Assembly: GCA_015521615.1 (NCBI GenBank)
Contig: WANW01000034.1
Span: 1 to 32,005 of the forward strand
DNA length: 32,005 bases
Reading direction: 5' to 3'
Source: Candidatus Hydrothermarchaeota archaeon
GTDB lineage: Archaea; Hydrothermarchaeota; Hydrothermarchaeia; Hydrothermarchaeales; BMS3B
Shown here: one piece after another, positions 1,181 to 32,005 of the stretch
Layout: every line of letters begins with the position of its first letter
Position numbering within the stretch: position 1 is the stretch's first letter
The notes under the pieces: generated by a model
What the model saw: only the letters and a program-made list of their open reading frames with translations
What the model was told of the DNA's origin: nothing
Databases searched by the model: none
Program-made: the position numbers and the translations under genes

Positions 1181-1741
1181 TTACATCTTCATCTCACCCT
1201 CGCCCATTTTCATACCCTTCATGCCGCCCATCTTCATCTTCAGGCTTTTAATGAGCTCCGGGGTTACCTCTTCGTAGGTTATTACTTCCCCACCATGCTG
1301 TGAGGCGAAGGCATGTGCATCCTCGCTCTTGGCAAAGGGTACGAGGTCATCGCCCATAGGCCCCTGAACGTCGCTGCCCTTTACATAGTATGCCTTTCTG
1401 GCGTCCGTATACTGCTTGCTGGCGTAGTCGGTTACGAAGATTGCGGCTACCTCGCTTCTATCAACCCACTGCTTGGGCTCGTTCTTGTTCGTCAGACCGA
1501 GTATGAACTTAAACATGTCCCTGGGTGAATCGAAGTGATAACGCTCACCGCTCTTGAGCACAACCTGCGCGCGCCACTCTGGATATTTGGCTGGCATCAT
1601 ACCACAAATGGGGCATTTGTCATCCATTGTTGGCTCTACAGGAGTAATCGCAGGAGTCTTCTCAGCGGGCTTCTCTGCAGGTGCCTGGGTACATCCGGCA
1701 AATATAATAAATGCCAGTATCCACAAAGCCAGTTTTTTCAA
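1181..1741 (-). CDS. NosL-like copper-binding lipoprotein with a Met-rich tail
   Basis: This 186-residue protein has a lipoprotein signal (MKKLALWILAFIIFAGC, lipid Cys17) and a Pro/Glu linker. A NosL core follows, with CPICGMMP (C43, C46, M48, M49), and downstream YHFDSPRDMFKF and the AYYV...GPMG pattern. NosL is an extracytoplasmic Cu(I) chaperone, best known for N2O reductase maturation but also found beside other copper enzymes. The last 17 residues form a Met-rich tail (MKMGGMKGMKMGEGEMKM), a plausible extra Cu(I) site absent from the second copy at 9636-10100. A strong GGAGGTGA site precedes the ATG. No nosZ is visible; the nearest possible copper client is the oxidase at the right edge. 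Confidence 0.82.
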   Translation of the reverse strand: MKKLALWILAFIIFAGCTQAPAEKPAEKTPAITPVEPTMDDKCPICGMMPAKYPEWRAQVVLKSGERYHFDSPRDMFKFILGLTNKNEPKQWVDRSEVAAIFVTDYASKQYTDARKAYYVKGSDVQGPMGDDLVPFAKSEDAHAFASQHGGEVITYEEVTPELIKSLKMKMGGMKGMKMGEGEMKM

Positions 1742-2887: not shown

Positions 2888-2937
2888 AACATGTTATTGC
2901 ATGAAAAAACATGTCAAAACATGTTTTCATCTGTTAT
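2888..2937. promoter_or_regulatory. 10-bp-phased CATG repeat upstream of the split-Soret-like gene
   Basis: Consecutive 10-base units read AACATGTTAT, TGCATGAAAA, AACATGTCAA, AACATGTTTT and a weaker CATCTGTTAT. The ATG core recurs at exactly 10-base spacing four times. The array overlaps the 3' end of the neighbouring gene (stop at 2914-2916). It is the strongest of the phased arrays in this window and probably binds a cooperative regulator of the gene at 1939-2733. Confidence 0.5.
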
Positions 2938-3807
2938 GTATACTTTATATGTCCTTTTAAATGGTTCTCTCCGTATTATACCTCTGTTTTCCAGTTTGGC
3001 AAGTATCTGACTTACCTTTGGGCGTGAAAATTTAATTCGCTCAGCTTTCCATATATCTTCCTGTAGAGCCACACCACCTCTTGCCTTAATAAGGGATAGA
3101 ATAAGTTCCTCATCGTCAGTTAGCTCCTTTTTGTCTTTCCTCTTCATTTTCATGAATGCGGGTATCATATCTCCTATTTTCTTATTCTTTTTCTTTATCA
3201 TAAAATAATAGATTGGCGATAGCAGGATGATGGGGATTAACATAAGAATAACAATCATAGAATATGTGGATTTATTTGCAACAGGATAAAATATACCCAC
3301 ATAAAACGTCTCGTTCTTTCTCAAAGCCCTTTTCCAGATCAGGACTACATGATTATCTTCAATATTTACGTAATCTGGCATAACTGTTAAATCATCTGAA
3401 TTTTCTAATGGCAGATTGGCGGAGGTGACATCTGGAAAGGAATTTTCCGGTAATTTAATTATAAGCAGAAGGTGCTCAACCGGGAAAGGGAAACCTACAT
3501 CCTTATAATAAAAGTGCTCTTTTCCTGCCAGCCTGCTCTCTGCTCTGCCAAGGACCTTTATCTCGTGTCTCCCCGGAAGGACGACAATACCTCCCTCTTT
3601 TATAATGACACTCTCCACATTTTCCATCAGTTGTATATCCTTACCGCGGATCGGGATGAATGCCTCCTTATCAGACTCCACTGAAATGAATATCCTCTCC
3701 TCCCCCTTATCCAGGTCCACATGAATCTCTACATTTTTAAGTACAGTATCTCCATGTGCTACGGGCATGACAAAAGCTAACAGCACAATAAACCAGGGGA
3801 ATCTCAT
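2914..3807 (-). CDS. Membrane-anchored winged-helix protein, first of a tandem pair
   Basis: The 297-residue protein has an N-terminal signal (residues 1-19) and an exported beta-rich domain of about 160 residues. One membrane helix (about 183-204, YSMIVILMLIPIILLSP) is followed by a Lys-rich stop-transfer segment. A cytoplasmic winged-helix domain (about 229-292) ends ALQEDIWKAERIKFSRPKVS and ENRGIIRREP, a MarR-like recognition helix and wing. The topology suggests an outside sensor directly coupled to a DNA-binding domain. It is paralogous to 3923-4849, with matching architecture and a near-identical RPKVS...LE.RG.I.REP core. The ATG lies about 28 bases from its TATA box, so the mRNA may be leaderless. 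The signal sensed is unknown. Confidence 0.6.
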   Translation of the reverse strand: MRFPWFIVLLAFVMPVAHGDTVLKNVEIHVDLDKGEERIFISVESDKEAFIPIRGKDIQLMENVESVIIKEGGIVVLPGRHEIKVLGRAESRLAGKEHFYYKDVGFPFPVEHLLLIIKLPENSFPDVTSANLPLENSDDLTVMPDYVNIEDNHVVLIWKRALRKNETFYVGIFYPVANKSTYSMIVILMLIPIILLSPIYYFMIKKKNKKIGDMIPAFMKMKRKDKKELTDDEELILSLIKARGGVALQEDIWKAERIKFSRPKVSQILAKLENRGIIRREPFKRTYKVYITDENMF

Positions 3808-3828
3808 ATCTAAAAGAGCATCCTATGA

Positions 3829-3840
3829 GATATTTATATC
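3829..3840 (-). promoter_or_regulatory. TATA box of the membrane winged-helix gene
   Basis: GATATAAATATC on the minus strand is centred about 28 bases upstream of the ATG at 3807, predicting a very short or absent leader. A TGTTCGAACA palindrome lies just upstream at 3859-3868. Confidence 0.5.
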
Positions 3841-3922
3841 TATCAATTGAAAATGTAATGTTCGAACATAAAAAGCAGTCAATTTCACTACAAAATCGGA
3901 TATATACTGGATAAATACGTTA

Positions 3923-4849
3923 TTAAATGTTAAGCTTTACTTTAAAAGTTTTTTTATAAGGTTCACGCACTATCAATCCGCGAGATTCGAGTTCAGAGAT
4001 TATTCTGCTCACTTTTGGTCGTGAGAATGGGAGCACCTCGCTCTTCCAGATGGTCTCCTGGAGCACTTCACCGCCCTGGCTGCGGATAAATTCAACGATT
4101 GCGCGTTCTTCATCATTCAGAAAGACATTGGCAACCTCTACCTTGCGTTTGCGCTTTGCGTAATGAAATCCAACCAGAAATGTAAGGGAGGCTATGAGAA
4201 GTGTTGAGATTAAAAAGTAATTAGGCCCCTCTTTTTCCGGGAGATGTATGCCCACTTCAAAACTCTCCCCGGCTTTAAGTGAGCGCTCCCACATCAGCGT
4301 TACTCTGTTGTTTCTAATTGCGACGCCGTCTGGGGGGATGCTCGTACTCCTCTGAAAAGTATCTGCTGAGCAGCAGTTGGGCAGACTGCGGTTAAATGTT
4401 CTGACTTCCGGGAAAACCCCCTCGGGAAATATCACCAGAAGACGGAACGTGTCAATGTCATAGGGTGTGGCGAAACCCTTGTAGAAGTATGTGCCCTCAT
4501 TGATATCAACTTTACCTACTGAGCTCATGGTGAAGGAGGTGCTTTCTCCCGTTCTTAGAGGATGTGTAAAGTATACCCTCTTTTTAACTCCAAGTTCTTC
4601 AATTTTCATTGGCTCACCATCTGAAGATGCGGCACTTAGTGGCATGGGGAATGCAAAATCAAAAAATCTCAAACCATCTGTCCTCGATGTTATATCCACA
4701 TAGAACTTCTCCTCTCCTGTTTGCAGATCCAGTGTTACAGTCACCTGGTTGATATGGTAGTCGCTGCTTTCACTGGCGATAGTAATTGGGAGCATAAACA
4801 GGAATACACCTAGCCATGCTACAAGGCCGAGGAGTAGTGAAATTTTCAT
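3923..4849 (-). CDS. Membrane-anchored winged-helix protein, second of a tandem pair
   Basis: From the ATG at 4849, preceded by GGTGGTG, it has 308 residues; an ATG at 4858 would add three. A signal/anchor segment (LLLGLVAWLGVFLFMLPITIA) precedes an exported beta-rich domain with two adjacent Cys (NCCS). One membrane helix (FLISTLLIASLTFLVGF) and a basic stretch follow. The C-terminal winged helix contains LQETIWKSEVLPFSRPKVSR and ELESRGLIVREP. It is a diverged tandem duplicate of 2914-3807 and probably transduces an extracellular cue to transcription. The pair lies between the cytochrome and the PQQ propeller genes, so control of respiratory or copper functions is possible but unproven. Confidence 0.6.
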   Translation of the reverse strand: MKISLLLGLVAWLGVFLFMLPITIASESSDYHINQVTVTLDLQTGEEKFYVDITSRTDGLRFFDFAFPMPLSAASSDGEPMKIEELGVKKRVYFTHPLRTGESTSFTMSSVGKVDINEGTYFYKGFATPYDIDTFRLLVIFPEGVFPEVRTFNRSLPNCCSADTFQRSTSIPPDGVAIRNNRVTLMWERSLKAGESFEVGIHLPEKEGPNYFLISTLLIASLTFLVGFHYAKRKRKVEVANVFLNDEERAIVEFIRSQGGEVLQETIWKSEVLPFSRPKVSRIISELESRGLIVREPYKKTFKVKLNI

Positions 4850-4869
4850 CACCACCATTTCATTTGCCT

Positions 4870-6066: not shown

Positions 6067-6486
6067 ATGAGCACGCTGGTTCTGCCGAGGAGGCTGCTGG
6101 AGGAGATTCTTAGCCACGCCCGGAGAAGCGCGCCACATGAGGCGTGTGGTGTTATAGCAGGCGAGGCTAAGGGCGGGCGAAAGCTCGCCAGGGCAGTTTA
6201 TCCGTGCAGAAATGTCGCCAGAAACCCGTATGCAGAGTATACAATTGCCCCCGAGGACCTGGTGAAGGCGCTGAGCGACATAGAGAGGAAAAAGCTTGAG
6301 GTGCTGGGCTTCTATCACTCTCATCCAGGTGGAGGTGTCTCACCCTCGGGCATAGACCAGGCGAGGGCGAGCTGGGACGGCGCGAGTTATGTTATCGTGA
6401 ATCTCCGCGGCGAGATAGCCTCCTGGGTGTGGGATGAGGAAGCCAGGAGTTTCAGAAGGGAGGAGGTGAAGGTCGAGAGTCAGTGA
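6067..6486 (+). CDS. JAMM/MPN+ metalloprotease
   Basis: The 139-residue single-domain protein has the full JAMM zinc motif: an upstream Glu in HEACGVIAG, and HSHPGGGVSPSGID, matching HxHx7Sx2D. Archaeal enzymes of this kind remove ubiquitin-like SAMP proteins from targets or release sulfur-carrier proteins; bacterial relatives act on thiocarboxylate carriers. Given the sulfur-relay genes in this window, either role is conceivable. It follows the propeller gene by three bases and is probably cotranscribed. Its last seven bases overlap the convergent membrane-protein gene (6480-6486). All metal ligands are present, so it should be catalytic. Confidence 0.82.
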   Translation: MSTLVLPRRLLEEILSHARRSAPHEACGVIAGEAKGGRKLARAVYPCRNVARNPYAEYTIAPEDLVKALSDIERKKLEVLGFYHSHPGGGVSPSGIDQARASWDGASYVIVNLRGEIASWVWDEEARSFRREEVKVESQ

Positions 6487-7505
6487 TAGAATATGGTGCC
6501 TACCATTGTGTAGAATATGAGCATGAAGACGAGAGAGACCGCGAGGAAGCCTCCAAAGCCAATAAGAGCGAGCTTTGCGAGCTGCCGCTGGAGGGCTGAG
6601 ACGTTATCGCGCAGGGAGGGCTTTGCCCTCAGAGGCTCGACCACCGCCACGAGCACACCTGCAATTCCACCTGCGAAGAGCAGCGCGTAGAGCGGGTAGC
6701 CCACCGCAGGCTCTCGCAGAACCTCAAAGGGACAGCGGTGCTGGGTGGGCAGACCGAAGAGAACCACGTTGAAGTAGGGGCTCAGGAAGGTGAACATTGC
6801 GAGTATTGAAACCGCAAACGCGGCTAAACTCATGACGCCGCAGGCAAGGGCAAGGCTTCGCCGCTCTCTATGCAGCTTCGCATAGAGCAGCAACAGAGCA
6901 AGCGCGTAGGAGGCAAAGAAGATGAGCATCGCAAGTCTGGCGGGGAAGCGCAGCGCCACAAAGCCGTAGGGGTTCTCAACGCTGCGCAGCGCGGAGCCAC
7001 AGCATGAGGTTATAACATTCGGAGATATCGCGGCGAAGTAGCGCACCTCCAGGTAGGCGTCCACGATCAGGATGGGCAGAAGGAGCAGCAGAAGCGCATA
7101 CTTCTGCCTCACCAGTGGATAATCCTCCGCCTTGGAATCCAGGTAGTTGACCGCGAGCCACGAGGCATAGAAGAATATCGTCAGAATCTTGACCCACAGG
7201 GTGGTGAAGCCGTAGCTGTTCGCATTCAGCGAGCCAAAGGCGCACATGGCGCCGCGGATGAAGCTTGCCAGGTAATCTGCGGTTGCCACGAAGAGTAGCA
7301 GGGAGAGCATCTGAAAGGCGAGCGCATACTGCATCAGCGTGCTCACGAGATAGGTGCGCTTCTCAAGCTCCAGCTGCTCCTCGCTCGCACTCCCATAGCG
7401 CCAGCGCAAAAGGATGCGCACGCCCTGCACCGCGGCGTAGATGCTGAGCAGGAGCACAATCGCTACGCCGATAATCTGGGAGATTATCCAGAAGTTGAGT
7501 ATCAT
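6480..7505 (-). CDS. Polytopic membrane protein with conserved-looking Cys motifs, last gene of the NosL/ABC operon
   Basis: I do not recognise a named family. The 341-residue protein has about eight hydrophobic helices. Cys motifs lie near predicted membrane boundaries: RGAMCAFGSLNANSYG after the second or third helix, ITSCCGSAL, and QHRCPFEVL. Such Cys positions would suit metal or thiol handling at the outer face. Its ATG overlaps the stop of the ABC ATPase as ATGA (7502-7505), so it is translationally coupled to the transporter and probably works with it. It overlaps the 3' end of the convergent JAMM gene. Function in copper or redox maturation is inferred from context only. Confidence 0.6.
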   Translation of the reverse strand: MILNFWIISQIIGVAIVLLLSIYAAVQGVRILLRWRYGSASEEQLELEKRTYLVSTLMQYALAFQMLSLLLFVATADYLASFIRGAMCAFGSLNANSYGFTTLWVKILTIFFYASWLAVNYLDSKAEDYPLVRQKYALLLLLLPILIVDAYLEVRYFAAISPNVITSCCGSALRSVENPYGFVALRFPARLAMLIFFASYALALLLLYAKLHRERRSLALACGVMSLAAFAVSILAMFTFLSPYFNVVLFGLPTQHRCPFEVLREPAVGYPLYALLFAGGIAGVLVAVVEPLRAKPSLRDNVSALQRQLAKLALIGFGGFLAVSLVFMLIFYTMVGTIFYH

Positions 7506-8185
7506 CTCCTCTCTACCCCTACAAGCATGCCGTCGCGCATGTCGAAGATGACGTCAACTATCTCATGTTCGTAAACTAAGGGGTCGTGGGTGGCTATTAC
7601 TATCGTCCTGCCCTCCTGCTTGAGGGAGCGCATTATGTCCAGAAACTCCTCCGCAAGCTTCGTGTCGAGGTGGGCGGTGGGCTCGTCGGCCACAATTATC
7701 CTTGGGTTGGCTATCATTGCCCTCGCTATGGCTACGCGCTGCTGCTCACCACCGCTGAGCTCGCGCACCTTGAAGCTACTGCGCTTCTCCATGCCTAGCC
7801 TCCTGAGCAGCTCAAGGGCGCGCTTCCTGCTCTCCCGCGGAGGTATGGGTGTGGGAACAAGCGGCAACGTTACATTGTCGAGTACGCTCAGCTCCGGTAT
7901 GAGGTTGAACTGCTGGAATATTATGCCTACGTGCTCCCTGCGGAAGCTCGTGAGGAAGTTCTCGGGCAGCTTTGAAACCTCCTTGCCAGAGACGAAAACC
8001 CTGCCCGACGTGGGTCTTGCCACACAGGCAATCAGCGAGAGCAGCGTTGTCTTGCCGCTGCCACTGGGTCCCCGGAGCACTGCCACCTTCCCCTCGGCTA
8101 TCTCGAGGCTTACATCCCTCACCGCAACTACCTCATTTGCCCTGCCCTTGTTGAACACCTTGGTTACGTGCTCGCAGCGTATCAC
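7502..8185 (-). CDS. ABC transporter ATPase, MacB/LolD type
   Basis: The 227-residue ATPase has Walker A GPSGSGKTT (about 39-47), a Q-loop in FQQFNLIPE, signature LSGGEQQRV (about 143-151), Walker B IIVADEPTAHLD and the H-loop IATHD. The FNLIPELSVLDNVTLP stretch is typical of the LolD/MacB/FtsE group, which drives mechanotransmission or extrusion rather than classical import. A GTG start at 8185 abuts the permease stop with no gap. The cognate membrane subunit is the FtsX-like protein at 8186-9346. A paralogous ATPase lies at 11480-12157. Confidence 0.92.
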   Translation of the reverse strand: MIRCEHVTKVFNKGRANEVVAVRDVSLEIAEGKVAVLRGPSGSGKTTLLSLIACVARPTSGRVFVSGKEVSKLPENFLTSFRREHVGIIFQQFNLIPELSVLDNVTLPLVPTPIPPRESRKRALELLRRLGMEKRSSFKVRELSGGEQQRVAIARAMIANPRIIVADEPTAHLDTKLAEEFLDIMRSLKQEGRTIVIATHDPLVYEHEIVDVIFDMRDGMLVGVERR

Positions 8186-9346
8186 CTATATCCCCCGCAT
8201 GGCTTCGTCCGGGTCTATGGTGCTCGCCCGCCAGGATGGCACCACGATGGCTGCAAGGAAAGGCACCACGCTTATCACAAATATTAAAATCAGGTCCTCA
8301 AAGGTAACCGCCGGCATCAGCTCAAACTCGGGGTAGAGTGTTGACCAGCCGAGGAGCACGGGCTTTAGCAGGGGTGCGCCCAGGTAGAAGACGTGAAGGT
8401 AGGCAAGGAGCACTCCCGCCAGGTAGGAGTTCAGCGCAAGCACCACGCCCTCAAAGGTGCGCATCTCAAGCACATCGCCGGTGCTCCATCCGAGAGCTTT
8501 GAGTATTCCTATTTCCTTCTTCTCTTCTGCCGTCAAACCAGAGGCGCGGTCCCACACAAGAATCGCGAAGGCAAGTATGGCGCCGAGAATGGCGGCGAGG
8601 AACACACCAGAGCGCCAGCCAAAGATAGCATCGTAGGTCTCACGTATCTGCTGCTTTGTGAGCACCCTTGCGTCGGGAAGCTTCTGCGAAATCTTTATGG
8701 CTATGTTCGAAAGTTCCGCCGGGTTTGCCACGTAGACCGCGAGGTCATTGGAGTACTCTTTGGGTATGCCGAAGAACTTCCTCGCCTCGCTGCGAGGCAT
8801 GACTATGATGTCGGCGCTCTGAAGTGCGGAGCGGGAGGAGAAGATGCCGACAACCCGGAACTTAACATATTCACCCCGGTGATCGCGCAGAATAAGCCTG
8901 TCGCCTATGCGGAGGCGCTTCTCTCTAGCGATCGCCTCGCCGACGATCACAGCACTTTCGCTCAGGTTACCCCTCACCTCGAAGGGGAGCCCTGTCAAGC
9001 TTTCAACGCCGATTATAGTGTAGGTCGCATCCTCCTCAGCGTCGTAGTAGTAGCCCCATATTCTGGGCTCTACCCTGCTCACCCCGCGGATCTCTTCAAT
9101 AGCTGTGGCGTACTCCAGAGGCACGAGCCCCTGCCTTCCGGCAATAATCTTCTGCACCGTTATGTCCGGCGCAAGGGATAAAGTCTCCCTCGCCTCCTGC
9201 TTGAGGGAGCCCATCATCATAACAACACTCGCGAGGGTGAAGACCACCAGCGTAAAGACGAGCACTGTCGCAAAGTTCTTTCCCTTCCTGCGGAGCAGGA
9301 AGCTTACCGCGTAGTCCAGAAGGTTTCGGTGCTTTTCTAGGCTCAT
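8186..9346 (-). CDS. FtsX/MacB-type ABC permease
   Basis: I start at MSLEKHRNLLDYAVSFLL (ATG at 9346, overlapping the upstream stop by four bases), giving 386 residues. An N-terminal helix (about 22-45) is followed by a large extracytoplasmic MacB-PCD-like domain of roughly 200 residues. Three C-terminal helices enclose the EKKEIGILKALGWSTGDVL coupling motif of FtsX permeases. The topology matches MacB/LolCE exporters, which move substrates at the membrane surface using the adjacent ATPase. Co-occurrence with a NosL-like lipoprotein suggests copper or cofactor delivery, somewhat as NosFY acts in N2O reductase assembly, although this permease is of a different fold. Confidence 0.82.
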   Translation of the reverse strand: MSLEKHRNLLDYAVSFLLRRKGKNFATVLVFTLVVFTLASVVMMMGSLKQEARETLSLAPDITVQKIIAGRQGLVPLEYATAIEEIRGVSRVEPRIWGYYYDAEEDATYTIIGVESLTGLPFEVRGNLSESAVIVGEAIAREKRLRIGDRLILRDHRGEYVKFRVVGIFSSRSALQSADIIVMPRSEARKFFGIPKEYSNDLAVYVANPAELSNIAIKISQKLPDARVLTKQQIRETYDAIFGWRSGVFLAAILGAILAFAILVWDRASGLTAEEKKEIGILKALGWSTGDVLEMRTFEGVVLALNSYLAGVLLAYLHVFYLGAPLLKPVLLGWSTLYPEFELMPAVTFEDLILIFVISVVPFLAAIVVPSWRASTIDPDEAMRGI

Positions 9347-9639
9347 CTCTCCACCTCTATACGGGTGTTGAAGCCTGCGAAGTGCGGCCTTCCAAAGCCC
9401 GTACACGAGGCATGGTAGCAGAGCTGCGCCGGCATGTCGCGGAAACAGCCCGAGAAGTCAACTATGCTCGGGTTGCGCGTGGAGTAGCAGTCCGTGGCTA
9501 TAGCTAGGTCGCTCAGCTCAAGTGCCCTTGCGATGGCCCGCTTTTCCTCCAGCGGGGTTTTATCCGAATGCATGGCGAGCAGAGCAATGCCCATGAGCTG
9601 AAGTGCGAGCAGCAGCATCATCTGCGTTGAGCGTCTCAT
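9343..9639 (-). CDS. Small membrane-anchored four-Cys protein between NosL and the permease
   Basis: From ATG at 9639 (4-base overlap with the nosL-like stop) it has 98 residues. It begins MRRSTQMMLLLALQLMGIAL, a single N-terminal anchor or signal. A short helix follows, then a Cys-rich outer segment with C51, C65, C74 and C79 in the contexts TDCYSTR, SGCFRD and LCYHASCTG. The spacing could make a metal site or two disulfides. I recognise no family. Four-base overlaps on both sides (9636-9639 and 9343-9346) show it is an integral part of the operon. The longer ORF reaching 9813 overlaps the nosL frame and is unlikely. Confidence 0.6.
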   Translation of the reverse strand: MRRSTQMMLLLALQLMGIALLAMHSDKTPLEEKRAIARALELSDLAIATDCYSTRNPSIVDFSGCFRDMPAQLCYHASCTGFGRPHFAGFNTRIEVER

Positions 9640-10100
9640 TTCAGCGTAACACCCCGCTCTACCACCTCTGAGAAGGTGAGCACATCGCCTGAGGGATAGT
9701 CCCTGCGGAAGCTCTCCGCATCCTCCCTGCTCGCGAACACCACAATTCCAAAGCCCATGGGAGTGGGTATGGCAGCGTTGGTTACATAGTAGGCGCGCTC
9801 TGCATCCACCCATCGTTGGGTGTAGTAGTCTCTGCAGTATATCTTTGCCATGCTTCCGCGGTGCTTGGAGTAGTAGATGAACATGTCCCCTGGATCGTCG
9901 AAGAACTTCACCTCCCTGCTGTCAAGTATCGCCTCGCACGCCCAGTTCTCGTAGTCCTTTACAAACATGCCGCACTCCGGACAGCGTGCACCCTCCGGCA
10001 CGGGCACTGGTTTGAGGTCTGGGGAAACCACCTTCCCGCCCTTCTGCGCGCAGCCTGAGAGCAGCAGCACCGCGAGCAGAAGCAATCCAATGCCTCGCAT
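9636..10100 (-). CDS. NosL-like copper-binding lipoprotein, first gene of the ABC operon
   Basis: From ATG at 10100 with a GGGAGGGAG site upstream, the protein has 154 residues. It has a lipoprotein signal (MRGIGLLLLAVLLLSGC, lipid Cys17), then CPECGM (C40, C43, M45) and a NosL core with FFDDPGDMFIYY and AYYV..AAIPTPMG. It is a paralogue of 1181-1741 but lacks the Met-rich tail. In the NosL family the Cys/Met motif region carries Cu(I) to a periplasmic or surface copper enzyme. It heads a five-gene operon in which neighbouring genes overlap by four bases or abut directly. TATA at about 10120-10131 and the phased repeat at 10167-10216 lie upstream. Confidence 0.82.
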   Translation of the reverse strand: MRGIGLLLLAVLLLSGCAQKGGKVVSPDLKPVPVPEGARCPECGMFVKDYENWACEAILDSREVKFFDDPGDMFIYYSKHRGSMAKIYCRDYYTQRWVDAERAYYVTNAAIPTPMGFGIVVFASREDAESFRRDYPSGDVLTFSEVVERGVTLK

Positions 10101-10276: not shown

Positions 10277-11479
10277 ATGAAGATGGATTTACTGTACCTT
10301 GCACTGCAGAATATAAAAAAGAGGAAGTTTCGCACCATCGGAGTGGTAATAGCTATAGCCATAGCCTCCGCCACACTATTCTCCTCAATTATATTGATGA
10401 AGAGTATGTCCTCTTCTCTGGAGCTGGGTATAGCCCAGCTTGGCGCGGACATAATGGTTGTACCACGCAGCACGGAGGAGCCGCTCAGCGCCATTCTCCT
10501 TGGCAGCGCCCCCTCAAAGGTCTACATCAGCGGTAAGTATGTGGGGCGCATTGCTGGTATAGAGGGTGTGGAGAAGGTGGCACCTCTGGTATTCCTGGAA
10601 ACCTCTGAGCAAAAGTGCTGCTTTAAGCCAGGTATCTTTATCATAGGTTTTGATCCCCAGAGTGATTTCATAGTAAAGCCCTGGGTGGAGAAGCAACTGG
10701 GCAGTCTGAATGCGTTTGAAACAATCGCGGGCTCAGGCTACGACTGGGTCCCTGGTTTTAAGGTTTACCTGTATGGATTCCCCTTTACCATCGCCGCCAA
10801 GATGCCCAGCACCGGCGTGGCCTACTTCGATAAGGGGATTTTTATGCCCCTCGACCGCCTTTACTGGCTGGCTAAACGCTCCCGGGAGTATGATGATATA
10901 GCAGACATACCACTTCGCCCTGGACAGGTGTCTGCAATTATGATACAGGTTGCCCCTGGCGCAGAGGCGGAGCGTATCGCAAAGGCAATTGAGTTTTACT
11001 TCCCGGAGCTAAAGGCAGTTGTTGCACAGAAGGCACTGGGCAATGTAAAGAGGCAGATGCAGATGCTGCTTCGCAGCCTTTTCGCCCTGAGCGCCTTCAC
11101 CTGGCTGACGGCTGTGATCCTGGTTTCTGTAATCCTTTCAATGAGCGTCAATGAGCGCCGTCGTGAGTTTGGGATCCTGCGTGCTCTAGGCGCAACAAAG
11201 CGCTTCATATTCGGTGAGGTTATTGCAGAGGCTTATATCCTGGCGACACTCGGAAGTGTGCTCGGTATGCTTGCGGGCTACGCCTTTCTCACAATCTTCC
11301 AGGACTTTGTTATAGGCTACCTGAACATGCCCTACCTCATACCAAACAAGTTCTATGTGGCGCTGATAAGCATTGTTATAATCGACGTGTCGCTGTTTCT
11401 GAGCACTCTGGCAAGCTTTTACCCTGCTTATAGAAGCGCTGAGCTCGAGCCCTATGAGGCGATAAGGTCGGGTGAGTAG
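10277..11479 (+). CDS. FtsX/MacB-type ABC permease, second copy
   Basis: The 400-residue protein starts MKMDLLYLALQNIKKRKFRT, then a first helix, a large outer domain with adjacent Cys (SEQKCCFKPG), and three C-terminal helices flanking the RRREFGILRALGATKRFIFGE coupling motif. This is the canonical MacB-like layout. The stop abuts the ATG of the cognate ATPase. It is paralogous to the divergent permease at 8186-9346 but clearly diverged and less GC-rich, so it is not a recent duplicate. Substrate is unknown; the neighbouring NosL operon suggests extracytoplasmic metal or lipoprotein traffic. Confidence 0.85.
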   Translation: MKMDLLYLALQNIKKRKFRTIGVVIAIAIASATLFSSIILMKSMSSSLELGIAQLGADIMVVPRSTEEPLSAILLGSAPSKVYISGKYVGRIAGIEGVEKVAPLVFLETSEQKCCFKPGIFIIGFDPQSDFIVKPWVEKQLGSLNAFETIAGSGYDWVPGFKVYLYGFPFTIAAKMPSTGVAYFDKGIFMPLDRLYWLAKRSREYDDIADIPLRPGQVSAIMIQVAPGAEAERIAKAIEFYFPELKAVVAQKALGNVKRQMQMLLRSLFALSAFTWLTAVILVSVILSMSVNERRREFGILRALGATKRFIFGEVIAEAYILATLGSVLGMLAGYAFLTIFQDFVIGYLNMPYLIPNKFYVALISIVIIDVSLFLSTLASFYPAYRSAELEPYEAIRSGE

Positions 11480-12157
11480 ATGATAATTGAGACCCGAAAG
11501 TTGACAAAGATATACAATCTGGGCGAGCAGGAGGTTGTTGCGGTGAGTAATGTGAACCTCACTGTTGAAGAGGGAGAATTTATCTCCATAGTGGGCCACT
11601 CCGGCAGCGGCAAGACTACGCTGCTCTCGCTGATAGGAGGACTAACACGACCAACTTACGGTGAGGTAATGATTGATGGTGTGAATATATGGGACCTGAA
11701 TGATGAAGAACTCTCACGTCTCAGGAACAGGAAAATAGGCTTTATGTTTCAGTTCTCCAGTTTGATACCCACACTCACAGTAAAGGACAACATGCTTCTT
11801 CCAGCGGCTCTCTCGGGTAGAGTGGGAAATGAGGAGATGCGCAGGGCGAGGGAGCTTCTGGAGCTTGTTGGTCTGGCTGATAAGATAAATGCCTATCCAA
11901 CACAGCTCTCAGGCGGACAACAGCGCCGCGTGGCCATAGCCAGAGCATTTATGAATCATCCGAAGATTATCCTCGCCGACGAGCCCACTGGTGACCTCGA
12001 CGAGGAGTCTGAGATACAGGTAATGGAGTTGCTCAAAGCCATGAACGAAAAAGAGGGCACAACAATTCTGCTGGTTACCCACAACCGTGAGCTTGCGACA
12101 CAGACACAGCGAACACTTGTGATGAAGAACGGACAGCTTATTGAAAAGCAACGATAA
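11480..12157 (+). CDS. ABC transporter ATPase, MacB/LolD type, second copy
   Basis: The 225-residue ATPase has Walker A GHSGSGKTT (about 39-47), a Q-loop in FMFQFSSLIPTL, signature LSGGQQRRVAIARA, Walker B IILADEPTGDLDEES and the H-loop VTHN. It belongs to the same group as the ATPase at 7502-8185. It starts directly after the permease stop with no gap and relies on translational coupling. It is the last gene of this unit; an A/T-rich stretch of about 125 bases separates it from the LysR gene and carries that gene's promoter. Confidence 0.93.
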   Translation: MIIETRKLTKIYNLGEQEVVAVSNVNLTVEEGEFISIVGHSGSGKTTLLSLIGGLTRPTYGEVMIDGVNIWDLNDEELSRLRNRKIGFMFQFSSLIPTLTVKDNMLLPAALSGRVGNEEMRRARELLELVGLADKINAYPTQLSGGQQRRVAIARAFMNHPKIILADEPTGDLDEESEIQVMELLKAMNEKEGTTILLVTHNRELATQTQRTLVMKNGQLIEKQR

Positions 12158-12282: not shown

Positions 12283-13209
12283 GTGAAACTCAGGTTAGAT
12301 TATCTTCAGACTTTTAAAGAGGTTGTCGAAGAAGGAAGTTTTCTCGGCGCCTCAAAGGCGCTGGGCATGAGTGTAAGCACAATAAGTTTGCATATTGATG
12401 CGGTTGAGAAGTTTTTTGAGGCGAGGCTGCTTGAACGCAATGTCAGCGGTGTGAAGCTCACCAGGGAGGGAGAAATCGCTTATAACAGCATAAGGGAGCT
12501 TTTTACTCTTCTCGAGAAGACAAAGAAGGGAATTAAGAATCTGAGCACAAAGATTATAAATATAGGCATAGGCTGCGTGGGCGTGCCAATAATAGCCGAG
12601 ATTCAGATGGGCTATAAGGATGTTCGCCCCGATGTGGACGTGAGGGTGAAGCTTACCGGGGAGTACACCTGTCTGGACCTTCTGGAGCACGGCGAGGTAA
12701 GTGTTGTGCTCGCAGGCTATCCAACGCCTCTGAAGCTTGATGATGGTTACCGCGTAGAGGAGATAGGCTATGATCGCTTTGTTTTAATAGTGCCTCCCAA
12801 CCATGAGCTGGCGAAGAAGCGCGAGGTTACAGTGGAGGACGTGCTCTCATATCCCATGGTTACCCTCAACAAGGGTTATAGCAGCACGGCAATTGAGGAT
12901 ACTCTGAGAGAGCTTAGAAATATAGAGAAGGAGCAGAAGATTGAGTGCAGTGTTAATGATATATTCTCCCAGATTTATGGCGTTTCCTCAGGGCTGGGCA
13001 CGGCGATTGCCAGCTATGTGCTCTCGAAGCGGTATGAGGAGGGCGGACTTGTGGTGATAAAGGAGATAAAGGATTTCACCGACGAGAGGCCCATATATGC
13101 GATAACCACCGAAAAGGCACTTGAAAATCCAGTTATTGCTGACTTCTACACGTATCTTGTTGAAAGAGGAACTCAGCTTCTTGAGAAATACAGGTTGAGA
13201 GGCGATTAG
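12283..13209 (+). CDS. LysR-family transcriptional regulator heading a sulfur operon
   Basis: The GTG start at 12283 gives 308 residues (MKLRLDYLQTFKEVVEEGSF). The N-terminal winged helix (about 3-62) has the LysR pattern LGMSVSTISLHIDAVEKFF and LERN..GVKLTREG. A two-lobed substrate-binding domain follows (from about residue 90, starting INIGIGCVGVP). LysR proteins usually respond to a small ligand and control adjacent genes. Here the four following genes are packed with gaps of zero or one base, so the ligand may be a sulfur compound or redox signal. LysR proteins are uncommon but present in archaea, and this one may have come from bacteria. Confidence 0.9.
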   Translation: MKLRLDYLQTFKEVVEEGSFLGASKALGMSVSTISLHIDAVEKFFEARLLERNVSGVKLTREGEIAYNSIRELFTLLEKTKKGIKNLSTKIINIGIGCVGVPIIAEIQMGYKDVRPDVDVRVKLTGEYTCLDLLEHGEVSVVLAGYPTPLKLDDGYRVEEIGYDRFVLIVPPNHELAKKREVTVEDVLSYPMVTLNKGYSSTAIEDTLRELRNIEKEQKIECSVNDIFSQIYGVSSGLGTAIASYVLSKRYEEGGLVVIKEIKDFTDERPIYAITTEKALENPVIADFYTYLVERGTQLLEKYRLRGD

Positions 13210-13737
13210 ATGAAGGAGAATGCAAAAAAGTACATCCCCTACATCTGGCTGGACGATGAGACAGGTCACCCGCTGATGATGAATGAGAGGTGCACAATAA
13301 TCTTCAGCGAGACCCTGAGTACGCTCAGACTAAGCCTGTATAAAATAATCGGCGAGGGTTCAGAGATGCTTCTCCGCCTGATAGGCAGGGATATGGGAAA
13401 GAAGTATGCACAGCTTGTTCTGAAGCAGTACCCGGAGCTTAATGAGGTGAGCAAACACACACAGATTTATGAGCTGTGCTCAATAATACTCAGAAATACA
13501 GGTTTCGGAAAGATAAAAATTCTTGAACTTGACGTGGAAAAACCAGAGATGCGGGCAATAATCGAGGATGCGCCTTCTGGACTGGGAATCAAGTCTCTAC
13601 CACCCATATACAACCTGGAGGCAGGGATGCTGTGCGGCATTCTTGAGCAGATCTTCAAGAGGGAGATGGTGGTCTCTGGTTACAGATTCAACGAAAACGA
13701 GGATAATTATGAGTTAACAATAACGAAGGTGGAGTGA
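13210..13737 (+). CDS. V4R-like small-molecule-binding protein
   Basis: The 175-residue protein starts at the ATG directly after the LysR stop. The C-terminal half resembles the V4R (4-vinyl reductase) fold, with IIEDAPSGLG, then NLEAGMLCGILEQIFKREM and a final GYRF...DNYELTIT strand. V4R domains bind small molecules and are found in regulators and bacteriochlorophyll enzymes. Cys residues occur in ERCTIIF, YELCSII and MLCGIL. No DNA-binding domain is seen, so it may be a sensor or accessory subunit for the adjacent regulator or for the sulfur carrier that follows. Family assignment is by pattern only. Confidence 0.55.
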   Translation: MKENAKKYIPYIWLDDETGHPLMMNERCTIIFSETLSTLRLSLYKIIGEGSEMLLRLIGRDMGKKYAQLVLKQYPELNEVSKHTQIYELCSIILRNTGFGKIKILELDVEKPEMRAIIEDAPSGLGIKSLPPIYNLEAGMLCGILEQIFKREMVVSGYRFNENEDNYELTITKVE

Positions 13738-13959
13738 ATGCGGGTGCTGGACGTTAGAGGAGAAATATGCCCCGTCCCCCTCGTGCGCTGTGTAAATGAG
13801 ATAAAGAAGATGAAGCCCGGAGAGGTACTGAAGGTTATCTCGGACCACCCGCCCGCGAAGAAGAGCATACCCATGGAGATGGAGGCGCAGGGACACGAGT
13901 ATACCATCGAAGAAGACGGTGCCGAGTTTACAATAACAATAGTTGTCAAGGGTAAGTAG
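13738..13959 (+). CDS. tusA: TusA-family sulfur carrier
   Basis: The 73-residue protein has the TusA signature ICPVPLVR, with the persulfide Cys at position 11, followed by a GEVLKVISDHPPAKKSIPM stretch typical of the fold. TusA carries sulfane sulfur between rhodanese-type donors and acceptors in tRNA thiolation, cofactor synthesis or sulfur oxidation. It abuts the V4R-like gene and precedes YeeE-type transporter genes by one base. TusA/YeeE neighbours are a recurrent pairing in sulfur-compound uptake. A second TusA is encoded at 23239-23472. Confidence 0.9.
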   Translation: MRVLDVRGEICPVPLVRCVNEIKKMKPGEVLKVISDHPPAKKSIPMEMEAQGHEYTIEEDGAEFTITIVVKGK

Positions 13960-13960
13960 T

Positions 13961-14431
13961 ATGCGCTACCTCTCCCCTACGAGAGCAGCTTTACTTCTTG
14001 CTTTGTTGAACTTATTACTGTACATTACCCTCGACCGTCCCTGGAGTATAACCTCAGGCGAGAGCCATTTTGTCGCATACGTGGAGAACCTCTTTTTTCC
14101 GGAGCATGTTGCAAAGAGTGCATATTTCCAGCGCTATGTGCCTGAGCTGAACTGGCGTGTGTGGCTTAATTTCGGTATAATTTTTGGCGCTTTTATTGGA
14201 GCATATCTGGGCAATGATTTTAAGGTGCGCATACCCAGAGTAAAGGCTCGTTTCCTTCAGGTTTTCATTGGAGGGTTTCTGATGGGGTATGGTGCCCGTC
14301 TTGCAATAGGGTGCAATATAGGGCACATAATGTCAGGCGTACCTCAACTGGCGGTTTCAAGCATAATTGCCTTCATATCAATAGCTGCCGGTGCCTATGT
14401 CGGCGGCAAGATTCTAATGCGGGTGATATGA
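13961..14431 (+). CDS. YeeE/YedE (TsuA-like) transporter, N-terminal half
   Basis: The ATG at 13961 gives 156 residues (MRYLSPTRAALLLALLNLLL); the ORF can be extended to 13943 but that would overlap tusA. Four or so hydrophobic helices are visible, with GYGARLAIGCNIGHIMSG carrying C118. This GxCxxGH loop is the first of the Cys-containing loops that pass thiosulfate through YeeE/TsuA. In many bacteria one longer polypeptide holds both halves. Here the second half is the next ORF, so the transporter is split and should assemble as a heterodimer. Confidence 0.8.
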   Translation: MRYLSPTRAALLLALLNLLLYITLDRPWSITSGESHFVAYVENLFFPEHVAKSAYFQRYVPELNWRVWLNFGIIFGAFIGAYLGNDFKVRIPRVKARFLQVFIGGFLMGYGARLAIGCNIGHIMSGVPQLAVSSIIAFISIAAGAYVGGKILMRVI

Positions 14432-14962
14432 GTGGAGGCTTTGATTGGCTTTGCATTTGGTGTTGCCATAGGTTTTGTGCTTGAGCGGGGACAGTTCTGC
14501 ATGGCCTCCGCATTTAGAGATTTCTTCCTCTTCCGTCATACGCATATTCTGCGTGCTGTAATGCTATACCTGGCCCTGCTTACTCCGGCATTCTTTCTGT
14601 TTCACCGGGCAGGACTGATTGAAACCTACCCGTACGTAAAGGAGGCAGGACTCTTTACAGTACTGGGTGGTATGATATTCGGAATAGGCATGGTGCTTGC
14701 AGGTGGTTGTGCCTCCGGTACGCTGTATAAGATAGGTGAGGGTTATGTTACATCACTTGTGGCGCTTATTGGCATGCTTCTGGGTATAGCTGCCTTTGGT
14801 GAGAGTTACACCTGGATCAGGGAAGTTTTGATAAATCCGACAAATATAGGCAGATTTACAGTTGCACAGGCTGCAGGTATCTCTCAGAACGTGGCCGTGC
14901 TTCTCGGCACGGTGGTTTTTGCCGGTATATATTTTCTCATGAAAAGAAGCTTTGTGAAGTGA
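14432..14962 (+). CDS. YeeE/YedE (TsuA-like) transporter, C-terminal half
   Basis: A GTG at 14432, directly after the previous stop, opens 176 residues. The motifs ERGQFCMASAFRD (C23) and LAGGCASGTLYKIGEG (C93) are the second and third Cys loops of the YeeE/TsuA family. Together with C118 of the preceding half they supply the three Cys reported as important in TsuA thiosulfate uptake. About five helices are predicted. Gene packing implies equal expression of the two halves. The substrate could be thiosulfate or a related sulfur species. Confidence 0.82.
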   Translation: MEALIGFAFGVAIGFVLERGQFCMASAFRDFFLFRHTHILRAVMLYLALLTPAFFLFHRAGLIETYPYVKEAGLFTVLGGMIFGIGMVLAGGCASGTLYKIGEGYVTSLVALIGMLLGIAAFGESYTWIREVLINPTNIGRFTVAQAAGISQNVAVLLGTVVFAGIYFLMKRSFVK

Positions 14963-14987
14963 ATACTCATGATTTAAATTTGGAAAA

Positions 14988-15001
14988 ACTTTTAAATATA
15001 A
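14988..15001 (+). promoter_or_regulatory. TATA box of the thioredoxin-like lipoprotein gene
   Basis: ACTTTTAAATATAA lies about 26 bases upstream of the ATG at 15021, consistent with a leaderless transcript and with choosing that ATG over those at 15006 and 15015. Confidence 0.5.
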
Positions 15002-15020
15002 GTGAATGCCACATATGATT

Positions 15021-15794
15021 ATGAAATATTTAATTACATTTTTGATTTTAATAATGGGGTTTTTTGCAGGCTGTACGGGGGAACCCAGGCAAGAGTTGCC
15101 TTTCAACTACGATGATAGGAACTTCACACTGGCTTTGAGGAGTGGCACTCCAGTGGTTCTGGAAATAGGAGCGAGCTGGTGCAAGCAGTGCATTGAGCAG
15201 CAACCTATAATGGAGGAGCTTGAGAGGGAGTACAGGGAGGTTAAGTTCTTTCTGGCAAACTTCGACACAGAGAAGGAGCTTGTAAAAAAGTATGGCGTTA
15301 GAGGTATACCTTATTTTGTTTTCTTTGATGCTGGCGGGGAGAAAGCTTTTGAAATAACCGGTTTTCAGGAGAAAAGAGTTATGGAGATGTTTATAAAGAG
15401 GATCCTCTACGGCAGTTTTGCTCAGAATGGCACATACACCACACATAATACTCTAAAGGAGCCGACAATCGAGCTGGAAGATGGTAAGGTGATAATAGAA
15501 ACTCAGGTTACTGAAAACATAACTGTCTGGGGAGAAAGCGTAGAAATTCTCCTGAACAATATGACTCTTGATGTATTGAATGTCACCCCACCAATAAACA
15601 GCATCCGTGACTTTGAGCTGATGAATGTAACAGAGGGCACTATAATAAGAGCGGAAGCTAATATTCCCCTTAATATAACAGCCTATGATACTCTGAATAT
15701 TGAGCTCAAGCTGGGAATTTTTGATATTGACTGCTGCGGAAACTACCGTGAAGTACTTGTGGGTGGAAGTTTCACAGAGTTTGACAAAACTTAA
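15021..15794 (+). CDS. Thioredoxin-fold lipoprotein with a WCKQC motif
   Basis: From ATG at 15021 the protein has 257 residues. A lipoprotein signal (MKYLITFLILIMGFFAGC, lipid Cys18) precedes a thioredoxin domain with WCKQC (Cys54 and Cys57) and the cis-Pro loop RGIPYFVFF. The C-terminal about 120 residues are beta-rich with several potential N-glycosylation sites (NIT, NMT, NVT) and a late CC pair. Surface thioredoxins of this type reduce disulfides or maintain copper-site or haem-site Cys. The gene follows the sulfur-transport operon but has its own promoter. No DsbD-like electron donor is visible in the window. Confidence 0.8.
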   Translation: MKYLITFLILIMGFFAGCTGEPRQELPFNYDDRNFTLALRSGTPVVLEIGASWCKQCIEQQPIMEELEREYREVKFFLANFDTEKELVKKYGVRGIPYFVFFDAGGEKAFEITGFQEKRVMEMFIKRILYGSFAQNGTYTTHNTLKEPTIELEDGKVIIETQVTENITVWGESVEILLNNMTLDVLNVTPPINSIRDFELMNVTEGTIIRAEANIPLNITAYDTLNIELKLGIFDIDCCGNYREVLVGGSFTEFDKT

Positions 15795-15914
15795 CCTTCT
15801 TTTTCCTGCCCATTTTCGGATTTTGCGTAAGACCATTATTTCAGTTTTCTATATATATGAACAGGCTTTCGAAAAATTTAAATACATGTTCTTATACCTA
15901 ATAAACTGACACAA

Positions 15915-15958
15915 ATAACGTAAAAACGCGAACGCATAAAGGGTATTAAAAAATAATT
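15915..15958 (+). promoter_or_regulatory. Promoter and AACGYR repeats upstream of the secreted rhodanese gene
   Basis: AACGTA (15917), AACGCG (15925) and AACGCA (15931) lie directly upstream of a TATA-like TATTAAAAAATAATTT (about 15943-15958). The ACG and GCG cores at 15918-15920 and 15928-15930 are 10 bases apart, resembling the phased motif of the nosL and cytochrome genes. Other AT-rich boxes occur at about 15847-15858 and 15873-15888. Confidence 0.4.
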
Positions 15959-15979
15959 TAACAAAAAGAGGAGGTGAAA

Positions 15980-16027
15980 GTGTTGGAAACCCGCCAACCC
16001 GCTAAAATAAGGAGGTGGAGGGCATGA
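15980..16027 (+). CDS. Possible 15-codon leader ORF overlapping the rhodanese start
   Basis: A strong GAGGAGGTG (15968-15976) precedes GTG at 15980 or TTG at 15983. The frame encodes about 15 residues (LETRQPAKIRRWRA) and ends with TGA at 16025-16027, overlapping the rhodanese ATG as ATGA. The rhodanese has its own GGAGGTGG site at 16011-16018, so the first site otherwise has no purpose. A GTTGG/CCAAC stem sits at the ORF start. It could be a translated leader or simply a duplicated binding site. Confidence 0.3.
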   Translation: MLETRQPAKIRRWRA

Positions 16028-17187
16028 AGAAAGGTTTAATGGCGCTGCTTGTGGGCGTGCTGTTTTTGGCCAGTGCCTCGCTGGTGAGTGCAGCGGAGTA
16101 CCCAGGTCCCCTTGTTGATATGGACTGGGTACAGGCGCATCTGGACACCATTAAAGACCCCACTCAGACCGAGATTCGCCTCGTTGAGGTAAGCAAAAAA
16201 GGATATGACAAGGAACATATTCCTGGCGCAGTCTGGGTAAAGTGGGGAAGCGAAGTATTTGAGCCGGGCACAGACCATATGATTCTGGATTACGGCTCCA
16301 TAAGTGCAGTGATGAAGAAGCTGGGTGTTACACCAGACACTCACATAGTAATATATAGTGACAGCCTTACACAGGCGGCTCGATTCTATTGGACTCTTAA
16401 GTACTGGAACGTGGAGAAAATCAGCCTGATGGGAGCCACAAAGAAAGCTTGGAAGGCAGAAGGCAGGCCACTAACCACAGAAGTCCCCGCAGTACAGCCT
16501 CGTGATTACGAGATCAAGTTCCCACCGAACACTAAGATATACGCTCTGCTTCACCCAGATGTCATGAATGGGCTTGCTACCGGAAAAGTGCTCTTCGTGG
16601 ACAACCGCCCAGCAAAATATGTCGAAGGTAAGAAGTACTCCCTCAGCAAGTGGGTCAGGGCAGGAACCATTCCTGGTGCCATAGGCTGGGCTGCACCGGA
16701 AGAGGTAACCAAGGATGGCAAGCTTCTGCCGGTTGAAGAGCTGAAGAAACAGGCAGAGAGCAAGGGTATAACTCCTGACAAGAACATCATAGTCTTCTGC
16801 AATACCGGTGTGAGGTCTTCGCTGGGATGGTTCATCCTGCATGAGCTCCTCGGCTATCCGAATGTCAAGAACTATGACGGCTCTATGAGAGAGTACGCCA
16901 ACAGCTTCTATCTGCCAATGGACCCAGATTCCTTCCTGATATACAAGGACTTCCCGAAGGCGCCAATACTCGAGGTGAAGGAGACCGCCGAGTCCGCCAA
17001 GAGCGCAGCTGACGAGAATGCCAAGAAGATCGCTGAGCTGGAGAAACAGCTTGAGGAGACAAGAAAGATCGCTGAGGCTGCTAAGGCAGAGGGCAAGGGT
17101 CTGTGCGGACCCACAAGCGTTGCACTGCTCGCTGCGCTTCCGCTCGCAGGGTATGCGCTGCGCAGGAGGTATCTGAAGAAGAACTAA
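16024..17187 (+). CDS. Secreted two-domain rhodanese with a CGP-CTERM-like anchor
   Basis: The ATG at 16024, after GGAGGTGG, gives 387 residues. A signal peptide (MKKGLMALLVGVLFLASASL) is followed by two rhodanese domains. The first has the inactive YSDSLTQAAR loop and the second the active FCNTGVRSS loop with Cys259. This is the usual thiosulfate or 3-mercaptopyruvate sulfurtransferase layout. A Glu/Lys/Ala-rich coiled-coil linker (about 320-358) leads to CGPTSVALLAALPLAG and a basic tail, resembling the CGP-CTERM sorting signal known from Thermococci, with Cys361 as likely anchor. The enzyme should work at the outer cell surface on thiosulfate or polysulfide, feeding the transport and carrier proteins encoded upstream. 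Confidence 0.88.
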   Translation: MKKGLMALLVGVLFLASASLVSAAEYPGPLVDMDWVQAHLDTIKDPTQTEIRLVEVSKKGYDKEHIPGAVWVKWGSEVFEPGTDHMILDYGSISAVMKKLGVTPDTHIVIYSDSLTQAARFYWTLKYWNVEKISLMGATKKAWKAEGRPLTTEVPAVQPRDYEIKFPPNTKIYALLHPDVMNGLATGKVLFVDNRPAKYVEGKKYSLSKWVRAGTIPGAIGWAAPEEVTKDGKLLPVEELKKQAESKGITPDKNIIVFCNTGVRSSLGWFILHELLGYPNVKNYDGSMREYANSFYLPMDPDSFLIYKDFPKAPILEVKETAESAKSAADENAKKIAELEKQLEETRKIAEAAKAEGKGLCGPTSVALLAALPLAGYALRRRYLKKN

Positions 17188-31591: not shown

Positions 31592-32005
31592 TTGGGCGGA
31601 GATTCTGACACCGCCGCCAAGTGGCTCTTCATCTCAGCCGTCGCCTGGCTGGGTGCGGCTGTTACCGTAGCCCTGATTCTGGCGGTAAAGTTCGTCTTTC
31701 CCGAGTTTCTCTCGGGCCACGCACCCCTGCAGTTCGGCAGGCTCAGGCCGGTGCACATCACCTTAGCCGCCTTCGGGTGGCTCTCCATGGTTCAGGTGGG
31801 TATGGCGTACTACACCGTGCCCAGGTTAGCCAGGGTGGAGCTGCACAGCCAGCGCTTAGCGAAGCTGAGCGTGCTCCTCTGGAACCTCTTTCTCATCCTC
31901 GCAGCCCTCACTTTGCTCGCCGGCATGACCCAGGGCAGGGAGTATGCGGAGCTCATCTACCCCCTTGACCTGCTCTTCCTTGCCCTCCTCGCCCTGGTGG
32001 CGTAC
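31592..32005 (+). CDS. 5' part of a haem-copper oxidase subunit I (cbb3/NOR type)
   Basis: From a TTG at 31592, preceded by GAGGGAGGAG, 138 codons run open to the window end. The sequence has helices KWLFISAVAWLGAAVTVALI and the pattern FGRLRPVHITLAAFGWLSMV followed by GMAYYTVPRL. This RLRPxH...YYxVPRL order is typical of CcoN or NorB, with the His as a low-spin haem ligand. It would reduce O2 or NO at the membrane and need a copper centre, which the NosL proteins could supply. The start is uncertain because an in-frame stop at 31571 limits extension and no ATG is in frame nearby. Low-confidence distinction between oxidase and NO reductase. Confidence 0.72.
   Translation, partial: MGGDSDTAAKWLFISAVAWLGAAVTVALILAVKFVFPEFLSGHAPLQFGRLRPVHITLAAFGWLSMVQVGMAYYTVPRLARVELHSQRLAKLSVLLWNLFLILAALTLLAGMTQGREYAELIYPLDLLFLALLALVAY

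Follow-up and report, generated by a model that had tools for sequence, protein, structure and literature searches.

Organization of the locus

We analysed a window of 32,005 nucleotides from the genome of a Candidatus Hydrothermarchaeota archaeon (93.7% complete), on whose minus strand five genes follow one another in the order NosL, P98, permease, ATPase and P341 (Table 1). The NosL/P98, P98/permease and ATPase/P341 junctions are 4-base ATGA overlaps, and the permease and ATPase genes abut directly. A sequence-only reading had described this tight joining and taken it to mean that the genes act together; the coordinates, the strand and the three cysteine motifs of P341 are as it described them. 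Divergent from the operon lies a second permease/ATPase pair, which belongs to the neighbourhood of the operon: in some relatives the second permease is found inside the same operon, and its extracytoplasmic Cys-Cys is present in 17/17 homologues.

Table 1. Genes of the operon and its surroundings in the window, with a related permease from Nitrospirota loci in the last row.
Feature	Coordinates	Strand	Characteristics
NosL-family lipoprotein, 154 aa	10100-9636	-	Pfam NosL; lipobox Cys, CPxCGM, second conserved Met (PMG)
P98, 98 aa	9639-9343	-	N-terminal membrane helix, short extracytoplasmic tail
FtsX/MacB-type (type VII) ABC permease, 386 aa	9346-8186	-	MacB_PCD and FtsX
LolD/FtsE-type ABC ATPase, 227 aa, GTG start	8185-7502	-	ABC_tran
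P341, eight-helix membrane protein, 341 aa	7505-6480	-	Undescribed family; MCAFGS, SCCG, RCPF
Second FtsX-type permease, divergent from operon	10277-11479	+	Extracytoplasmic Cys-Cys (SEQKCCF)
Second LolD-type ATPase, abuts second permease	11480-12157	+	Neighbour of second permease
Second NosL-family lipoprotein, same region	1181-1741	-	Syntenic in 3/4 neighbouring genomes examined
Third FtsX-type permease	L075 6230-7927; L056 6164-7870; L076 1755-3455		

The surroundings contain several further genes of interest. The second NosL gene is adjoined by a gene for a C_GCAxxG_C_C redox protein with a signal-like N-terminus (1939-2823), and at 2914-4858 lie two adjacent genes for membrane-anchored proteins with a winged-helix domain (DUF7343) at the C-terminus, the second with a Cys-Cys in its extracytoplasmic part; these are possible one-component sensors, and at least one of the two is kept in 3/4 related loci examined. 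A LysR-type regulator (12283-13209) is 93-97% identical across the genus, an unusually high degree of conservation, most neighbouring genes being less conserved; the gene directly after it (13210-13737) matches XylR_N weakly. Beyond it, a sulfur-related block (13943-17187) holds two half-length YeeE-type (Sulf_transp) genes, a thioredoxin-like lipoprotein and a double-rhodanese protein.

Families of the operon proteins

The NosL protein matches the Pfam NosL family with E=2.4e-22 (80.1 bits against a 24-bit cut-off) and carries a lipobox, LLSGC, and the motif CPECGM; C41, C44, G45, M46 and M116 are invariant among 12 NosL proteins. In NosL the C-G-M motif and a second methionine are conserved and have been proposed as Cu(I)-binding residues (PMC6530538), and the protein of the operon retains the lipid-anchor cysteine, the CXM motif and the second conserved methionine. 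The permease exceeds the cut-offs for both MacB_PCD (1.6e-14, 55.2 bits) and FtsX (2.2e-10, 41.0 bits), lacks cysteine and has a VQxxxAGRQ signature. Its cognate ATPase matches ABC_tran (4.5e-35) as well as FtsE (5.6e-60) and LolD (1.5e-58), the last two under the equivalog cut-offs, so that it belongs to the LolD/FtsE class and to neither of the named equivalogs. Together, the MacB_PCD and FtsX permease and the LolD/FtsE-type ATPase make up a type VII (MacB/FtsX) ABC system. A third FtsX-type permease of 566-569 aa, with extra N-terminal helices and a Cys-Cys, adjoins P341 operons in Nitrospirota, and a homologue of the second permease, also with Cys-Cys, occurs on a Treponema saccharophilum plasmid (L090 6771-8841), where it stands between a DUF4418 gene and an ATPase, beside a cysteine synthase gene.

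The two proteins that the sequence-only reading could not name have no match in Pfam or NCBIfam, and the profile searches thus place neither in a known family with a non-metal role. For P341, 46 members were scanned against Pfam, and no family matched more than 4 of them, with best E-values of about 0.006; the profile scan gave no FtrD-like domain. Searches of the PDB gave no sequence match at E<=1 and, with a structural model in Foldseek, none at E<=0.001. P341 was considered as the membrane part of a FetA protein and rejected, since hhalign gives a probability of 0.2% against FTR1-DUF2318 proteins.

In the same 46 sequences, whose identity falls to 21%, L53, M87, C88, G91, W116, P130, C168 and C169 are invariant, and H256 and C258 are more than 90% conserved, giving the motifs M87-C88-x2-G91, C168-C169 and H256-x-C258. 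An AlphaFold2 model computed from an alignment of eight rows shows eight long helices (mean pLDDT 72.7, pTM 0.76), with pLDDT below 50 in the cysteine-bearing loops. The density of Lys and Arg is 0.153 in the loops of one side and 0.031 on the side that bears all of the cysteine motifs, an asymmetry with the same sign in 46/46 sequences; because the positive charge is on the opposite side, the motifs are predicted to be on the extracytoplasmic face.

The sequence-only reading had also drawn attention to the four cysteines of P98. A metal site formed by them must be rejected as the key feature of the system and is not supported as a general one, because these cysteines are confined to Hydrothermarchaeota and are missing from all Nitrospirota members of the alignment, whose motif is close to LTDxxxxTEARYTRHPSQADxFxxFQDxPxSxEHFPxGS. 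The weight of interpretation accordingly moves from P98 to P341 and the second permease. P98 itself is most plausibly a partner of the permease, since it accompanies every untruncated subfamily-A permease (29/29 loci) and is lacking where there is no such permease (0/5 loci: L050, L052, L053, L054 and L057). Its structure prediction was uninformative (pLDDT 51.9), and comparison with the small proteins in the corresponding position in a distant clade and in a second archaeal class gave hhalign probabilities of 4% and 20%, too low to establish homology.

Distribution and conservation of gene order

The genus has five members, and the other four genomes are collinear with ours in this neighbourhood. 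Contamination has been raised as a concern about Nos and Cox genes in related bins (PMC6759336); that the operon is a contaminant of an archaeal bin is unlikely, because its neighbourhood is kept in these four genomes. Relatives of P341 at 79% and 70% identity come from Candidatus Pyrohabitans and other Hydrothermarchaeota records, and the protein is present in 6/23 genomes of the phylum. It also occurs in 55/296 Nitrospirota genomes with the first profile and, with a wider profile, in 94/396 genomes selected for their relationship to one Nitrospirota genome.

The order NosL-P98-permease-ATPase-P341 is kept in most subfamily-A loci for which larger flanks were read, and recurs in the hydrothermarchaeal genus as well as in many Nitrospirota, which bears out the view of the genes as a conserved unit. 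Since this recurrence in Nitrospirota is seen at about 41% P341 identity, the arrangement is not due to chance. In one Nitrospirota locus (L075) a single direction of transcription is shared by the second permease, its ATPase, PCuAC, NosL, P98, permease, ATPase and P341. The five-gene set need not be complete, since P341 is solitary in L050 and L057, and L052-L054 have no adjacent permease or P98.

A diverged version of the set occurs in another archaeal class, which consists of a single family of 47 genomes and in which 19/47 have P341. Two small genes there precede the permease, one encoding a CPMCGM protein whose profile comparison with NosL gave a probability of 22%, which is not significant, and P341 lies beside the ATPase on the opposite strand in 2/4 loci read. 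The small proteins encoded upstream of the permease in this class include one with CPMCGM, one with PGGYSLY and an Ig-like one with FYACLCIAGGRW (L084 4991-6571 and L086 14486-16012). A maximum-likelihood tree divides P341 into two subfamilies, and because each of them mixes archaeal and Nitrospirota members, the tree points to transfer between archaea and bacteria. Searches of plasmids for P341 and P98 gave no matches, and neither did a search of phage families. In the open-access literature we found no paper describing the five-gene set; subscription papers were outside the scope of this search.

Candidate metal and client proteins

Copper is the best-supported cargo, judged from the sequences, because the Cu(I) residues of NosL, the nearby PCuAC and the invariant Cys-Cys of the second permease all suggest it. 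The copper-handling part of the sequence-only reading therefore holds to the extent that extracytoplasmic copper is the best fit. Genes for PCuAC copper chaperones (PF04314) belong to the operon or adjoin it in archaeal L046 and in several Nitrospirota loci (L061, L064 and L075), and only a minority of P341 loci have PCuAC nearby. A set of DUF2318, permease and ATPase genes within a Cus copper-efflux cluster on a Pelobacter plasmid also speaks for copper. NosL was found in 16/17 P341-positive and 5/25 P341-negative Nitrospirota genomes (p=3e-6), a comparison of draft genomes that ignores kinship and in which one negative, G050, yielded a fragment of P341 under the wider profile. Proteins of the NosL fold might also serve other metals.

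The proposal that the client is a haem-copper oxidase fared less well. Full-length COX1-type haem-copper oxidase genes are present in 34/41 P341-positive and 13/35 P341-negative Nitrospirota, and oxidases are thus enriched in carriers, but seven P341-positive genomes have no full-length oxidase detected, and because the comparison is phylogeny-confounded the link is suggestive only and serves as a lead. As in all of these co-occurrence counts the genomes are drafts and kinship is ignored; the negative set was defined by the first profile, and the G050 fragment found under the wider profile leaves the result unchanged. A COX1-type gene start, cut by the window edge, lies at 31592-32005, and several further COX1-family matches occur in the genome. 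The PCuAC/Sco pathway shares with our system the PCuAC in or beside some operons and the enrichment of oxidases in carriers, but here an ATP-driven motor and P341 are added and there are no oxidase genes inside the operon.

Alternative explanations

FetABCDEF of Campylobacter jejuni, which is accessory to FetMP in iron uptake, has a similar set of parts, with FtsX permeases, a LolD-type ATPase, an eight-helix membrane protein, DUF2318 and thioredoxins (PMC10783030), and a thiol/redox relay or movement of a thiol has been proposed for it. An extracytoplasmic machine of this type would use the Cys-Cys of P341 and of the second permease to relay reducing power, or to move a thiol, to TlpA-type or DUF2318 proteins, any effect on metal being indirect. 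It would account for the vicinal cysteines, found in P341 in 46/46 sequences and in all homologues of the second permease, and for the genes of TlpA-like thioredoxins and FtrD-like (DUF2318) lipoproteins in the vicinity of several Nitrospirota loci; in several loci of this phylum the DUF2318 gene comes directly after P341. DUF2318 occurs in 39/41 P341-positive as against 5/35 P341-negative Nitrospirota genomes (kinship ignored), and the window encodes a thioredoxin-like lipoprotein with CxxC at 15006-15794. However, NosL and PCuAC are copper proteins and not redox enzymes, P341 has no CxxC, and it has no profile similarity to the FTR1-DUF2318 fusion, whose locus in the host genome is separate; we therefore consider a thiol machine unlikely. 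Iron uptake of the FetMP-FetABCDEF type, which draws on the same classes of FtsX permeases, LolD ATPase, DUF2318 and thioredoxins (PMC10783030, PMC6083913), is very improbable: open reading frames and profile matches around the operon include no FTR1 or P19, their place being taken by NosL and PCuAC, and there is no homology between P341 and the FTR1 portion of FetA-like proteins, which in these genomes are FTR1-DUF2318 fusions. The host moreover has a Fet-like iron system of its own (L100 5136-7755, on contig C39), consisting of an FTR1-DUF2318 fusion and an FtsX permease beside a metal-regulator-like gene.

If copper is indeed the metal, the motor could instead serve detoxification of copper or silver, stripping Cu(I) from membrane sites and passing it outward. 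Related DUF2318-permease-ATPase genes do lie inside a Cus-type copper-efflux cluster on a Pelobacter plasmid, archaea, which lack an outer membrane, could release metal directly from a surface system, and the P341-positive Nitrospirota in which no full-length oxidase was detected would be in keeping with such a role. But in the loci read we recognised no CsoR, CopA or RND gene next to the module, PCuAC is a chaperone of assembly, and genomes with P341 are enriched in haem-copper oxidases; we consider detoxification slightly less probable than the thiol machine. Maturation of N2O reductase, with the operon substituting for NosDFY, is the hardest of these explanations to credit. Both systems combine a NosL Cu(I) lipoprotein with an ABC ATPase/permease pair and work outside the cytoplasm, and nosZ is present in one related archaeal genome (G014). 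The set nevertheless differs from NosDFY in its MacB/FtsX permease and the addition of P98 and P341, as had been noticed from the sequence, and in the absence of NosD from the operon and of NosD or nosZ from its flanks. Co-occurrence and the situation in the host largely reject this role: 9/41 P341-positive as against 5/35 P341-negative Nitrospirota have the nosZ propeller (p=0.55), which shows no association, and no nosZ (PF18764) match was found in the host genome, which is 93.7% complete.

A proposed model for copper transfer

On our best reading, the set is a module for copper transfer based on NosL and a type VII ABC pair, and differs from NosDFY. As far as sequence allows, we lean slightly towards the view that the operon encodes a machine using ATP to transfer Cu(I) at the outer surface of the cytoplasmic membrane, in which we infer copper as the metal, its transfer as the function and the roles of the partners. 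NosL, anchored by lipid, would carry Cu(I) through its conserved residues, and C88, C168, C169 and C258 of P341, with M87 and H256, would form a membrane-borne soft-metal site. ATP hydrolysis by the type VII pair would move the extracytoplasmic domain of the permease, and this movement, with P98 as partner, could pass the metal between NosL and P341 or on to a cuproprotein. The second permease, with its Cys-Cys, and its ATPase probably serve this pathway as an auxiliary motor. MacAB, LolCDE, FtsEX and YbbAP-TesA have the same permease and ATPase families and make extracytoplasmic work without classic transport possible; the present module differs from them in having NosL and a Cys-rich membrane protein as partners and no known adaptor.

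More tentatively, and with somewhat less confidence than in the machine itself, we suggest that P341 may represent a new family of membrane copper proteins, with an extracytoplasmic Cu(I) site loaded or unloaded by the type VII motor and NosL, and that this could be a distinct copper-transfer route, common to archaea and bacteria through inter-domain transfer. The module bears on two questions, how copper is supplied to extracytoplasmic enzymes of archaea and what NosL does where there is no N2O reductase. It connects NosL to a type VII motor and a Cys-bearing membrane protein in both archaea and bacteria, points to exact candidate residues, and offers a likely function for genes whose present annotation says no more than NosL, generic ABC transporter or hypothetical.
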